Positions 27,215 to 37,238 of a DNA stretch of 64,000 nucleotides are shown piece after piece. Below the pieces are notes generated by a model, which was given only the letters and a program-made list of their open reading frames with translations, was not told the DNA's origin and did no database searches. The DNA is from Poseidonibacter antarcticus (GTDB taxonomy: Bacteria > Campylobacterota > Campylobacteria > Campylobacterales > Arcobacteraceae). Location: positions 1 through 64,000 of the forward strand of contig NZ_RCWF01000010.1 of assembly GCF_003667345.1 (NCBI RefSeq), in the 5' to 3' direction. The translations under genes were made by a program, and so were the position numbers. The first letter of the stretch is position 1, and each line of letters opens with the position of its first letter.

Positions 27215-27248
27215 ATTATAATTGGAAATAATGATAAAAATATGTCAA
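27215..27248 (-). promoter_or_regulatory. Promoter region of the NDH-like gene
   Basis: Minus strand TTGACATATTTTTATCATT, then TATAAT at 27215-27220, again 22 bases after TTGACA. Same box and spacing as before scoA and the enoyl-CoA hydratase gene. Confidence 0.45.
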
Positions 27249-27376
27249 TTGTCACTAAACTTACACCGGCTATTATTTAACTCTTATTTTATATATTATT
27301 TTATTCCAATAATTAAGTGATAAACAAATCAAATAAGATTATGTACCTATTAAGTTCTAAATATTTGTACCTAAAG

Positions 27377-27533
27377 TTTAGTTATAATAAAAATATATTT
27401 AATATATAATTTTATATTTATATATAGGAATAATAAGTAATAATATATTAGTTATAATTAAATATAGAAATAATTAGTAAAAGCTTATATTATCGTATGT
27501 TGTTTATAGTCTACAAGTATCTAAAAGGTAGAG
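27377..27533 (+). repeat. Decayed copy of the parA leader and first codons
   Basis: About 157 bases align at high identity with 36241-36395, which carries the AT-rich leader, ribosome site and first codons of the ParA gene. Compared with that copy there is a 10-base deletion, the AGGAG ribosome site has become AAAAG, the TTG start has become TTA (27490-27492), and a 10-base insertion leads to a stop at 27529-27531. The repeat is therefore a non-coding relic, in direct orientation 8.9 kb from the intact copy. The rest of the 27183-27554 gap holds only the NDH-like promoter and AT-rich sequence. Confidence 0.8.
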
Positions 27534-27554
27534 TTTTAAAATTTTTGACTTTTT

Positions 27555-28310
27555 TTATGAGCAGAATTCTTCAATTTTTGATGCAAAATATACTGGACAT
27601 TCTAACATTGGATAATGCCCTGCTTCTTGACACTCTATAATTTCTAAATCATTATAATATTCTGAAAATAGTTTTGTAACTAATTTTAATGAAAAAATAG
27701 GAAAATCATACTTTCCAACTATTATTTTAATAGGAATATTTATATTTTCTACTTCATTGGAAAAATCAGTTTCTAAATACATTTTCATATACCCTACTCT
27801 AGCTTTTAAACTTGATGCTTCGTATGCCATTTTTATTCTACTTTTTGCCCAAGTTTTATTGTATCTTTTACTTGAACTATATACTATTTCTTCAATTTTA
27901 TTTTTATTTTCACTCATTTCATTTATAAGTTTATTTTTTGCTATTTCTGGAAGTTTTATACCAGATGCAGGAATGGGTGTGATAAGAATAAGTTGTAAAA
28001 CTCTTGTATCTAATAGTGCGATTTTTTGTGCTATCATCGTAGACATAGAGTGTGCTACAATAACAACTTCATCTAAATCCAACAAAGTTATAAGATTTTT
28101 AACATCATTTGCAGCTTCAATACAACTATACTCACCTTCAATATCTTTTGACAATCCATATCCTCGTAAGTCCACATATATAAAAGTATATTTTTGAGTA
28201 TCCAAGTAAGGGAAAGTGGGTTCATAATTTTTATAATTTCCCATAAGTTCATGTAAAAACATAACTTTTTTTGTACCTGTTCCAATTATTTTATGACCTA
28301 AGTCTATCAT
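27555..28310 (-). CDS. Alpha/beta hydrolase
   Basis: A 251-residue alpha/beta-fold hydrolase. Oxyanion region LHELMG, strand YVDLRGYGLS (about 44-53), nucleophile serine in VIVAHSMSTMIAQ (G-x-S-x-x type with alanine at the first position), acid near VGKYDFP (about 200) and histidine in CQEAGHYPMLECP (about 229). It resembles 3-oxoadipate enol-lactonase and general esterases; substrate unknown. It is a single gene, divergent from the multidomain response regulator. Confidence 0.75.
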   Translation of the reverse strand: MIDLGHKIIGTGTKKVMFLHELMGNYKNYEPTFPYLDTQKYTFIYVDLRGYGLSKDIEGEYSCIEAANDVKNLITLLDLDEVVIVAHSMSTMIAQKIALLDTRVLQLILITPIPASGIKLPEIAKNKLINEMSENKNKIEEIVYSSSKRYNKTWAKSRIKMAYEASSLKARVGYMKMYLETDFSNEVENINIPIKIIVGKYDFPIFSLKLVTKLFSEYYNDLEIIECQEAGHYPMLECPVYFASKIEEFCS

Positions 28311-28480: not shown

Positions 28481-30334
28481 ATGAATAGTACAAAAATACT
28501 ATATGTAGATTCAAACAAAGAATATGGTCAAAAACTTTTATTAGCATTATTAGCTCAAAACTATAACGTAAAATATACAAGTACTTTAAAAGATGCTATC
28601 ATAGAAAATTCTTTTCATAATCCAGATATAGTAATCACAGATACTCAATTAAAAGATGGTAATGGTATAAATTTAATAAAAAAAATAAAAAAAATATCTC
28701 CTACTATTAAAAGTGTAATAATTACAAGTGAATCAAATAAAGATATTTTACTTCAAGCTATTAAAGTAAAAGTAGATGAGTTTTTATTTAAAGATATTAC
28801 TTTAGAGAAAATATTAAATGTTATAAAAAAACTCATAATAATTGATAAAAGTTTAAAAAGTAAAAAGGTAAAAGTTGATTTAAATTTTGACTTAGGTAAG
28901 CATTATATTTATAATGGAAATGATATTAAAACAGCAGAAAATAAAATTATTAAACTTACTTCTCAAGAAAACAATTTAATAAGAATACTAATTGATGCAA
29001 AAGGTTCATGCGTATCTTATGAAACAATACAAAATACTATTTCTAAAAATAGAACTTCATTAGATACTATTAGGACAGTAATTAGAAAAATACGTAAAAA
29101 GAGTTTTAATGAAATAATTTTAAATCAAAGTGGAATGGGATATAAAATCTCTTGGAATAATCCTAATTCGAAGATTAAATTTAACACTACTTATGAAAAA
29201 TTAGATGTAAAAGTACTTATTGTGAAAGGAAATTATAAGAGAAATGAACGTTTATCTTACAAACTTGAAAGATATGGTTTTAAATGTGAAAATGCTTATA
29301 CACTACAACAAGCAAGAGATTATATAAATAATAGTAAATATGCTTATATTATTTTAGACTTAGACCTTCCTGATGGAGAAGGTATTGATTTTATACGAAA
29401 ATTTGAAGAGCTTTATACTACAAAAATTATCGTATTATCAAGTACTGAAGATGTTCATTACAAAGATTATCTTTATTTTAAAGGTGTTTTAGATTATATA
29501 GTAGATATTTCTGATGTAGATTATTTATCAAATTCCATTTATAAAACAATCTATAAAGTAGAAAACAACACAAGATTCAATAATATTCTTATTATTGAAC
29601 AATCAAAAAAAACTTGTCAGCAAATAAAAGATTTATTAGTTCCACGAAATTATGATGTAGATATTTTAAATAATTTTGAAGAAGCTTTTGATTTAATAAA
29701 ATCAAAACCATATAGTTTAATTATACTAGACCTTAATTATGAAAACTGCTTTGAATTTATACAATTAATCAAACAAGATATATCAAAAGTAATTAGTTTC
29801 TTTGTTTTATCTGATGAAAATAGAACTTATGCAACTGTTAGGGAATCATATAATAATGGAGCTGATGAATGTTTACGTAAACCTATTTTTGCAGAAGAGT
29901 TTATATTAAAAGTCGAGCAACATATTGATAATACAAAGTTAATATTCGAATTAAGTGATAATAAAAAAATATTAGATAATTATAAAAAAATTGTTGATCA
30001 GTCTGCTGTAATATCTAAAACTAATATAAATGGAATAATTACTTATGTTAATCCTGTATTTTCAGATTTATCAGGTTATACAAAAGAAGAACTAATAGGT
30101 CAAGCTCACAATATTATTAGACATCCTGATTCTCCTAAAGAAATGTTTACACAAATGTGGGATACTATAAAATATAAAAAAGAAATTTGGTCTGGTGTAT
30201 TAAAAAATAGAGCAAAAGATGGTCATGCATACTATGTACAAACTTCAATCATGCCAATATTAAATCATGATGGAGATATAGAAGAATTTATTGCGCTTCG
30301 CAATGATATTACAAATATATATAAATTAGGATAA
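28481..30334 (+). CDS. REC-wHTH-REC-REC-PAS response regulator
   Basis: A 617-residue protein that begins as a normal OmpR-type regulator and then continues. REC1 (residues 4-122) keeps D10, D54 and K104. A winged helix spans about 138-224 (TSQENNLIRILIDAKG, SLDTIRTVIRKIRKK, GMGYKI). REC2 (about 243-360) retains D293 but lacks the acidic pair and the terminal lysine, so it is probably not phosphorylated normally. REC3 (about 367-485) has D417 and K467-P468. A C-terminal PAS domain (about 505-612) is of the Aer-like type with GYTKEELIGQAHNIIRHPD. DNA-binding by the internal HTH and signal input from the PAS end are inferred. AAGG precedes the ATG. Confidence 0.88.
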   Translation: MNSTKILYVDSNKEYGQKLLLALLAQNYNVKYTSTLKDAIIENSFHNPDIVITDTQLKDGNGINLIKKIKKISPTIKSVIITSESNKDILLQAIKVKVDEFLFKDITLEKILNVIKKLIIIDKSLKSKKVKVDLNFDLGKHYIYNGNDIKTAENKIIKLTSQENNLIRILIDAKGSCVSYETIQNTISKNRTSLDTIRTVIRKIRKKSFNEIILNQSGMGYKISWNNPNSKIKFNTTYEKLDVKVLIVKGNYKRNERLSYKLERYGFKCENAYTLQQARDYINNSKYAYIILDLDLPDGEGIDFIRKFEELYTTKIIVLSSTEDVHYKDYLYFKGVLDYIVDISDVDYLSNSIYKTIYKVENNTRFNNILIIEQSKKTCQQIKDLLVPRNYDVDILNNFEEAFDLIKSKPYSLIILDLNYENCFEFIQLIKQDISKVISFFVLSDENRTYATVRESYNNGADECLRKPIFAEEFILKVEQHIDNTKLIFELSDNKKILDNYKKIVDQSAVISKTNINGIITYVNPVFSDLSGYTKEELIGQAHNIIRHPDSPKEMFTQMWDTIKYKKEIWSGVLKNRAKDGHAYYVQTSIMPILNHDGDIEEFIALRNDITNIYKLG

Positions 30335-30406
30335 TTATAAATTAAATTCATTTTTTATTCATTAAATTCAATTAAAATAATAACTCAAAGAGTAATTAGG
30401 ATAAAT

Positions 30407-30997
30407 ATGAAAACTTTAATTTATGATAAAAATCCAGATACATATAATCAAATATCTAATATTATCCAAAATCTGTCAATAGATATCCATATAGAATACG
30501 TATCTACTCTTAATAATTTTCGTAATCAATATAATCAATATACTTATGATATTGTTTTTATAGATTTTGATAATAAAATAAGTATAGAAATTGTAGACCA
30601 TATTCACAATATGCATAAACAACAAAATATTATACTATTAAATGATGAATTTACTTGTTTTAATAATATGGACTGTGTAAAATGTAGAGCGGAAAATAAA
30701 ACAAATATTTTAATTAAACCTTTTGATCCAAGTCAAATTATAAAAATTTTTCTTAATAACTTTAATTGTGAAATTGTTAATATAAATGAAGAAATATTCA
30801 TAATTGAGAAATTTAAAAAAGAAGTATTAAAAAAATATCCATATATTTCTTTTATTGATAAAACAAATAAATTTAAGATAAATAGTATGACTAAACAATC
30901 AAAACTAGAAGCACTAATTGAAATTACAGAACTACTTGAAAAAAGTGAAATAAAACATGAAATCGAAGATGAATATATTCAACTTAAAGATATTTAA
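30407..30997 (+). CDS. Receiver-like protein
   Basis: A 196-residue protein whose first 120 residues resemble a receiver domain: hydrophobic strand KTLIYDKNPD (D7), VFIDFDN with a candidate acceptor aspartate (D54), and a late NILIKPFDP with conserved lysine-proline (about K104-P105). A CVKC pair sits in the region where helix 4 should be. The remaining C-terminal 75 residues are charged and helical, without a recognised output domain. It follows the multidomain regulator by 72 bases in the same orientation and may be its partner in a phosphotransfer or titration role; this is inference. Confidence 0.65.
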   Translation: MKTLIYDKNPDTYNQISNIIQNLSIDIHIEYVSTLNNFRNQYNQYTYDIVFIDFDNKISIEIVDHIHNMHKQQNIILLNDEFTCFNNMDCVKCRAENKTNILIKPFDPSQIIKIFLNNFNCEIVNINEEIFIIEKFKKEVLKKYPYISFIDKTNKFKINSMTKQSKLEALIEITELLEKSEIKHEIEDEYIQLKDI

Positions 30998-36011: not shown

Positions 36012-36363
36012 TTCTATCCTTTAGTATTTATTCTATAATAACCCATCAATTAAACAGAGTATTTTCTACAAACAGATTATAAACGATAATGGCAAAGAAG
36101 TAGATAAAATTTATCTTATTAAACATAAGAAATAATGAGTTTATTTTTTTAATTAGTATAAATATAGTTAAACAATTGTTTATTCTTATATTTATATATA
36201 GAAATATTATATAAAATATAAATAAAATAATAACTCTCTATTTAGTTATAATAAAAATATATTAAACATATAATATTATATTTATATATAGAAGTAATTG
36301 TTAATAATATATTAGTTATAATTATTTTATATCAAATATAGAAATAATTATTAGGAGCTTATA
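36012..36363. promoter_or_regulatory. Iteron-like AT-rich leader of the ParA gene
   Basis: About 350 bases, nearly all A and T. The element TTATATTTATATATAGAA occurs at about 36186 and 36276, and TTAGTTATAAT at 36242 and 36312, with AAATATAGAAATAATTA nearer the gene. The repeated blocks look like sites for the ribbon-helix-helix partner or a centromere-like array. AGGAG (36353-36357) serves the TTG start at 36364. The right part is the source or sister of the decayed repeat at 27377. Confidence 0.55.
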
Positions 36364-36960
36364 TTGTCGTATGTTGTTTATAGTATAAAAGGTGGAGTTG
36401 GTAAAACTACTCTATCTGTTCAGGTATCTCAAATGTTAAATTATACTTATGTTACGAATGATTCTCATTCATCTGCACATAATTTAATGCCAGAAGAAAA
36501 AGGTTTTTTAGTTTCAACTGAAGATTATGATGAAATTCCATTTGATGAAAATGTAGTTTATGATTTTGGTGGATTTAAAGATTCTAGAATAAATGATATT
36601 ATTAAACAAGCTAGTAAAATTATAATACCAACACTTACTTCAATTGTTGATGTTCAAGCTACTATTGCAACACTTAAAGATGTATCTGAAATTAACAAGG
36701 ATATAATCATTGTAATTAATAGAACTAAGAACAACAACAAAGCTATTGAGTTAAAAGAGTATTTAGAAGAAGAGATAAAAAAATCATATAAAGATATAAA
36801 TTTTACTATTTTATTTGTTAGAGATTCTTCTGTATTAGAAGATAGTTTATTTGATTGTGAAGCTATTGAAAATAAAGCTGGAACAAATAGATTTAAAAGA
36901 CATATTTATAGAAATGCAATAGAAGATATGAATAATATTAAAAAAGCACTAAAGGATTAA
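36364..36960 (+). CDS. Small ParA-family ATPase
   Basis: A 198-residue Walker-type partition ATPase without an N-terminal HTH (type Ib size). The deviant Walker A KGGVGKTT starts at residue 9, a Walker B-like VVYDFGGFKD is at about 64-73 and a VINRTKNNNK stretch (about 118-127) follows. The start is TTG, supported by AGGAG 6 bases ahead and by the MSYVVYSIKGG opening. It is followed after 2 bases by an RHH protein, a standard plasmid partition layout. It is distinct from the large chromosomal Soj/ParA, and no replication gene is nearby, so it is probably a plasmid-derived cassette. Confidence 0.85.
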   Translation: MSYVVYSIKGGVGKTTLSVQVSQMLNYTYVTNDSHSSAHNLMPEEKGFLVSTEDYDEIPFDENVVYDFGGFKDSRINDIIKQASKIIIPTLTSIVDVQATIATLKDVSEINKDIIIVINRTKNNNKAIELKEYLEEEIKKSYKDINFTILFVRDSSVLEDSLFDCEAIENKAGTNRFKRHIYRNAIEDMNNIKKALKD

Positions 36961-36962
36961 TT

Positions 36963-37238
36963 ATGGGCTATGCAGATAAGTTAAAACAAAATTCTTCAAA
37001 AATTCAAACTAATGAAAAAGTTTTAAAAGAAAAAGCACCTACAAAGAAAAAAGCAGGAAGACCAAAAAAAGTACAAGAAGAAGTAAGAAATGTAGCTATT
37101 CCTGTTGCATTAAACAAACATGAAAAAGATTGGATTGAGCAACAGGCTTTAAATATGTCAAGAGAAGTTGGAGTTAAGATTACTACTTCAGCTTGGATGA
37201 GAATGACTTTATTAAAAGAGATGGAAAAGGATCTTTAA
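36963..37238 (+). CDS. Ribbon-helix-helix partner of ParA
   Basis: A 91-residue basic protein. The N-terminal 40 residues are lysine-rich and likely flexible (KKKAGRPKK AT-hook-like stretch at about 29-37). Residues 45-90 fit a MetJ/Arc fold: VRNVAIPVALNKHEKDWIEQQA, then a helix ending in TTSAWMRMTLLKEM. It starts 2 bases after the ParA stop, as do small centromere-binding proteins of type Ib partition systems. DNA binding to the upstream AT-rich repeats is inferred. Confidence 0.75.
   Translation: MGYADKLKQNSSKIQTNEKVLKEKAPTKKKAGRPKKVQEEVRNVAIPVALNKHEKDWIEQQALNMSREVGVKITTSAWMRMTLLKEMEKDL

Follow-up and report, generated by a model that had tools for sequence, protein, structure and literature searches.

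The closest described counterparts of the feature analyzed here, a decayed piece of a parA leader in Poseidonibacter antarcticus, are the gene fossils found at points of rearrangement or island loss. Like these, the piece, to which we refer as the scar, is truncated and frame-broken, has a shared flank, lies by a breakpoint and shows a neutral-looking decay, but it differs from them in consisting mainly of regulatory DNA, the repeats of a leader, with about 14 codons attached. As to the intact cassette to which the scar is related, the closest system is ParF-ParG-parH of plasmid TP228, whose partner protein, according to the outline in PMC7308502, is of the ribbon-helix-helix type with a flexible N-terminus and is accompanied by repeated upstream sites. 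The intact cassette shares with this system a small ParA (198 aa, predicted fold matching ParF with a Z of about 15), a small partner that is predicted to have a flexible N-terminus and a ribbon-helix-helix-like C-terminus, and AT-rich upstream repeats, but it is chromosomal, its ParA is about 15-18% identical to ParF in a structural alignment, its partner is unrecognized by Pfam, and its repeats are putative binding sites. Another relevant example is presented by the tyrosine-recombinase islands, with a recombinase at one end, a duplicated target at both ends and a single target copy in most island-free genomes. The island at ychF described below follows this pattern, but it has the 5′ end of ychF for a target, the target repeat enters the recombinase N-terminus, and the window, by which we mean the whole 64,000-nucleotide stretch of DNA that was analyzed, keeps a remnant only. 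Against this background, the scar is very probably a dead fragment, the debris of an earlier, island-linked copy of the cassette that was cut by a rearrangement and has since decayed. The features of the window are as follows.

27240 to 27382, forward strand: F′, a relic of segment F, which immediately precedes the cassette of P. lekithochrous
27377 to 27541, forward strand: the scar, a decayed parA leader plus about 14 parA codons, approximately 165 bases
27417 to 27435, forward strand: operator-like motif 1 in the scar, TTTATATATAGGAATAATA, its AGAA core mutated to AGGA, with a putative role in binding
27457 to 27475, forward strand: operator-like motif 2 in the scar, ATTAAATATAGAAATAATT, likewise with a putative role in binding
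27555 to 28310, reverse strand: alpha/beta hydrolase gene, with its stop codon at a distance of 13 bases from the right edge of the scar, forming the right side of the breakpoint
36043 to 36129, forward strand: remnant of the N-terminus of the island tyrosine recombinase, immediately preceding the intact leader and including the repeated stretch 36075-36108
36154 to 36363, forward strand: intact parA leader, with AT-rich repeats, TATAAT-like boxes, TATATAGAA motifs and a ribosome site
36364 to 36960, forward strand: parA, encoding a 198-aa ParA-type ATPase with a KGGVGKT Walker motif (Pfam CbiA, 6e-9)
36963 to 37238, forward strand: partner gene (91 aa), its product modelled with a basic, flexible N-terminus and a ribbon-helix-helix-like C-terminus (predicted helices 52-69 and 75-89)

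When the leader segment 36241-36395 was searched against the window's own genome (G000, 55 contigs), positions 27377-27517 matched 36241-36391 in direct orientation, with 84% identity over 151 columns (169 bits, E 6e-43), at a distance of 8.9 kb from the intact leader, and the further copies sought amounted to three other places of 39-44 bits each. The direct match of about 157 bases noticed in the preliminary description is thus confirmed, with its right end shifted from 27533 to about 27541. By pairwise alignment with the intact copy, the repeats comprise 88 matches, 8 mismatches and 10 gapped positions, the ribosome-site zone 14 matches and 3 mismatches, and the first codons 29 matches and 3 mismatches; past these, a local alignment reveals a 10-base insertion in the scar, after which homology to parA resumes up to codon 14. 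The earlier claim that start codon, ribosome site and frame are lost also holds: the scar has TTA where intact parA has TTG, and AAAAG where the intact leader has AGGAG, and the 10-base insertion breaks the frame in the coding part. Homology to an intact gene is therefore combined with truncation and with loss of start codon and frame, as in decayed gene copies. That the match represents a chance likeness of AT-rich DNA is almost inconceivable. The sequence is extremely AT-rich, and many matches of 40-60 bits are found in relatives, but the best score in 100 simulated 64-kb sequences was 63.5 bits under an AT-rich order-1 model and 44.6 bits under a whole-window model, so that the alignment exceeds the expectation for AT-rich DNA, and the match moreover takes in parA codons and continues into a shared flank. 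A structured RNA was also considered for the scar and rejected, with zero Rfam family matches in 20-45 kb of the window.

The shared flank lies to the left. The left limit of 27377 given in the preliminary description holds for the leader match, and the fossil continues beyond it, to about 27240, as homology to the upstream flank of the cassette in Poseidonibacter lekithochrous A1R12 (G001), in which the segment directly upstream of the parA leader is here termed F. Aligned to the respective locus (L080), window positions 27240-27382 are homologous to and colinear with F, matching at 86% over 76 bases (E 1.6e-18) and at 83% over 63-66 bases (E 3.2e-11). F′ is devoid of an internal piece of about 100 bases, the edges of the gap being the short repeat AAGTG, and it joins the leader copy at TTTAG, leaving out approximately 90-250 bases, depending on the alignment, that separate F from the leader in G001. 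The whole fossil, of about 300 bases, thus comprises F′, leader′ and parA′, arranged as in the G001 cassette, and because its left flank is colinear with what immediately precedes the G001 leader, we interpret it as a fossil of an F-leader-parA junction, which both supports and sharpens the earlier proposal of a scar of a previous cassette copy. F itself is not specific to the cassette, since it is positioned 23 kb from the cassette in G002, where it adjoins a tyrosine recombinase, and is present without a cassette in G009, where it lies beside the right end of the island. Over its length of about 250-300 bases (L080:1602-1903, L114, L116/L158), F carries a long imperfect inverted repeat, TTAGAGCTT ... 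AAGCTCTAAATATTT, and it recurs next to the recombinase or the island right end (G002, G009) and beside the cassette (G001), in the putative role of an attachment arm or a small RNA.

On its right side, the scar ends beside the hydrolase gene. Homologues of this gene (about 80-82%) are found in five congeners, with other neighbours and no scar; around these homologues, and around those in two other family genomes, neither the window's neighbour genes nor leader-like sequence were detected, and the flank behind the gene is unlike that of the window in five of the five congeners. As the surroundings of the gene are different in the congeners, we consider the junction of scar and hydrolase gene to be a rearrangement breakpoint. 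Between the scar and the ychF block, which is conserved, positions 28481-30997 encode a response-regulator-like protein of 617 aa and another protein of 196 aa. The DNA of both has weak partial matches at most in five congeners, which suggests a potentially lineage-specific stretch.

The genomes of relatives reveal the structure of the island in question. In G001, a recombinase gene (372 aa, integrase families) adjoins ychF on contig C43, contig C42 harbors F, the cassette and, as far as a PAS-domain gene, another three small genes, and a second ychF 5′ end is found in front of the PAS-domain gene; with the island spread over two contigs, this arrangement is read across an unassembled junction. 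G009 possesses this arrangement without the cassette, with two ychF 5′ ends 25.5 kb apart. Both genomes thus have a recombinase at one end, beside ychF, and a direct repeat of the target at both ends. Across 10 genomes of the genus, the ychF 5′ end is present in two copies in G001 and G009, in one copy in seven genomes including that of the window, and in none in G004 (at one mismatch). The target repeat continues into the recombinase N-terminus (window 36043-36129; L153:475-1593; L160). A tRNA as the target of the island was ruled out, as the seven loci scanned contain none. The recombinase remnant of the window matches the recombinase in L153 at 66% over 29 aa (E 6e-8). In G006 and G002, ychF is directly beside the PAS gene, and in G003 the two are 1.7 kb apart, in each case with no cassette between them, and in G005 the best match to the PAS gene is on another contig; G002 keeps a recombinase remnant at the ychF/PAS place and has its cassette elsewhere. 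The remnant before the leader and this comparison of relatives together place the intact cassette of the window in the remains of an island. The island-end repeat was not seen near 39.7-39.9 kb of the window, the expected right end, and outside Poseidonibacter the recombinases among the matches listed are on other contigs or at least 34 kb away from the cassette. The scar, which lies across ychF from the intact cassette, is, judging from these sequence comparisons, a detached copy of the F-leader-parA junction of the island.

The intact cassette encodes a protein that, at about 200 aa, without an N-terminal DNA-binding domain and with a KGGxGKT motif, has the properties of a small ParA. Its predicted structure (pLDDT 76) has as the nearest folds 3cwq/small ParA, FlhG and ParF (Z 15-16), and a sequence search of solved structures returned none for parA at 1e-3. 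With a dN/dS of 0.075 versus G001, parA is under purifying selection. The partner was modelled with a pLDDT of 67 overall, the helices being better predicted, and its first half is without regular structure, followed by two helices. The best structural match, obtained in a second look, is to CopG 1ea4 (Z 5.5, 42 of 42 residues, rmsd 1.6); Foldseek gave no match at E 0.001, no Pfam family scored above the cut-off, and the single match from the sequence search of solved structures is meaningless (E 0.38). As a lead, the modelled layout would be that of ribbon-helix-helix partners such as ParG. By analogy, the intact cassette most likely works like ParF-ParG: the small protein would bind the TATATAGAA repeats around the parA promoter and repress parA, and it would also link the repeat DNA to the ParA ATPase. 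The intact leader contains, at 36241-36346, a doubled promoter-like unit (TTAGTTATAAT twice) that is absent from the G001 leader.

Such cassettes are not limited to Poseidonibacter antarcticus. A leader search of 104 family genomes uncovered, among the matches listed, at least 18 parA/partner cassettes in at least 17 genomes. All 18 contain parA, and the partner is recognized in 17 of the 18 by ORF clustering and in the eighteenth (G002) by tblastn. Cassette locations differ between genomes, and several are near genes that, from their sizes and order, we take to be fusA-rpsG-rpsL or rpoBC. The motif TATATAGAA is present in 16 of the 18 leaders, which for this count extend one codon into parA, versus 0.68 expected from shuffles. 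One genome, G108, has two parA/partner cassettes (L096, L103), one near the usual neighbourhood of its genus and the second behind a four-gene cluster common to G103 and G120, the sizes of these genes suggesting a putative efflux pump with a regulator. A plasmid or phage origin of the cassette was considered and rejected: the ParA superfamily is shared, but the cassette was not found on plasmids, the relatives of parA, which are on 251 plasmid records, mostly of Campylobacter, being all below 60% identity (E 7e-13 for the best among the matches listed), the partner gene having no relatives on plasmids and parA none in phage records. None of the titles and abstract openings listed in literature searches names this cassette or the ychF island, which does not show that they are undescribed.

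The preliminary description further stated that the repeats of the scar are well conserved and proposed, as one of two explanations, that they are kept as binding sites. The conservation is real but not special, as the coding part, which would serve no purpose in binding, is conserved to an equal degree (Fisher p = 1.0), and we found no positive support for the proposal, which we regard as improbable. According to it, the scar would persist because the small DNA-binding protein has a further cluster of sites there, serving as a satellite centromere or as a repressor-titrating decoy apart from the main cluster. Two motif-like sites do remain (motifs 1 and 2), but the first of these is without the AGAA core, and a 10-base gap is located among the repeats; the cluster is, besides the cassette, the sole one of its kind among the own-genome matches listed, but no detached leader of comparable strength is found among the matches listed from the 104 family genomes. 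By three-way parsimony, with G001 as the third sequence, the private changes in 59 repeat columns number three in the scar and three in the intact leader, in agreement with retention of the repeats inasmuch as the repeats of the scar have not changed faster than their intact counterparts. Over the 59 columns that begin at the ribosome site, the numbers are eight and zero (Fisher p = 0.006), i.e., the scar has changed faster than the intact copy where the latter is constrained, on small numbers. Within the scar, the repeats have changed less than the part that starts at the ribosome site (3/58 versus 8/58, with 58 columns per part instead of 59), but not significantly (p = 0.20). The numbers in all these three-way counts are small and depend on how the AT-rich repeats are aligned, and conservation is read from one genome per species. 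A dispersed family of binding sites was ruled out, the 19-base motif (up to three mismatches) showing no genome-wide excess, with 86 places versus 73 for the reversed control; that the scar holds two of the better matches is as descent predicts. Overall, scar-specific change amounts to 11 of 118 columns (9%), and as this is about half of the value by which G000 and G001 differ at synonymous sites of parA (0.20), neutral decay since about the species split fits. The decay of the scar thus looks neutral in these comparisons.

A more specific reading, that the scar is a captured satellite centromere, a gene-less leader piece left by a partition cassette and retaining sufficient binding sites to be bridged to the intact leader 8.9 kb off, we find quite improbable; were it true, the chromosomal ParA system would now act at two sites, one on each side of a segment with ychF in it. 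Also to be considered is that the TATAAT-like boxes of the scar form a live promoter, giving a short transcript opposed to the hydrolase gene at its 3′ end. The scar has kept both of the leader's TTAGTTATAAT boxes, and these are aimed at the convergent hydrolase gene, but such boxes are common in DNA this A/T-rich, and a live promoter seems very improbable.

Under the preferred reading, of dead debris, the scar would do nothing at present, and the order of events may have been the following. An earlier cassette, comprising F, leader and parA, would have stood at the place of the scar, carried by or duplicated from the ychF-targeting island. A rearrangement would then have broken parA near codon 14 and fused it to the DNA immediately following the hydrolase gene, with the loss of the rest of parA and of the partner gene, and the remnant would have decayed through point changes and through deletions between short repeats. 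Two histories fit this scheme. In one, a stretch ending in parA codon 14 would have been duplicated from 36 kb, followed by complementary losses; in the other, a second island or cassette would have entered next to the hydrolase gene and been lost again by deletion. A simple copying of the G001 arrangement does not account for the scar, which shares with the window leader the doubled TTAGTTATAAT unit that G001 does not have, and this doubled unit may slightly favor duplication.

In conclusion, the scar as a feature appears to be ordinary debris, and its interest lies in the history that it records: the partition cassette of this lineage has moved, or been duplicated, along with DNA of an island. 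Two more unusual subjects follow from it. One is the chromosomal cassette of parA and its partner, with its conserved repeated motif, present in differing places in at least 17 of the 104 family genomes; the other is the Poseidonibacter island that integrates at the 5′ end of ychF.
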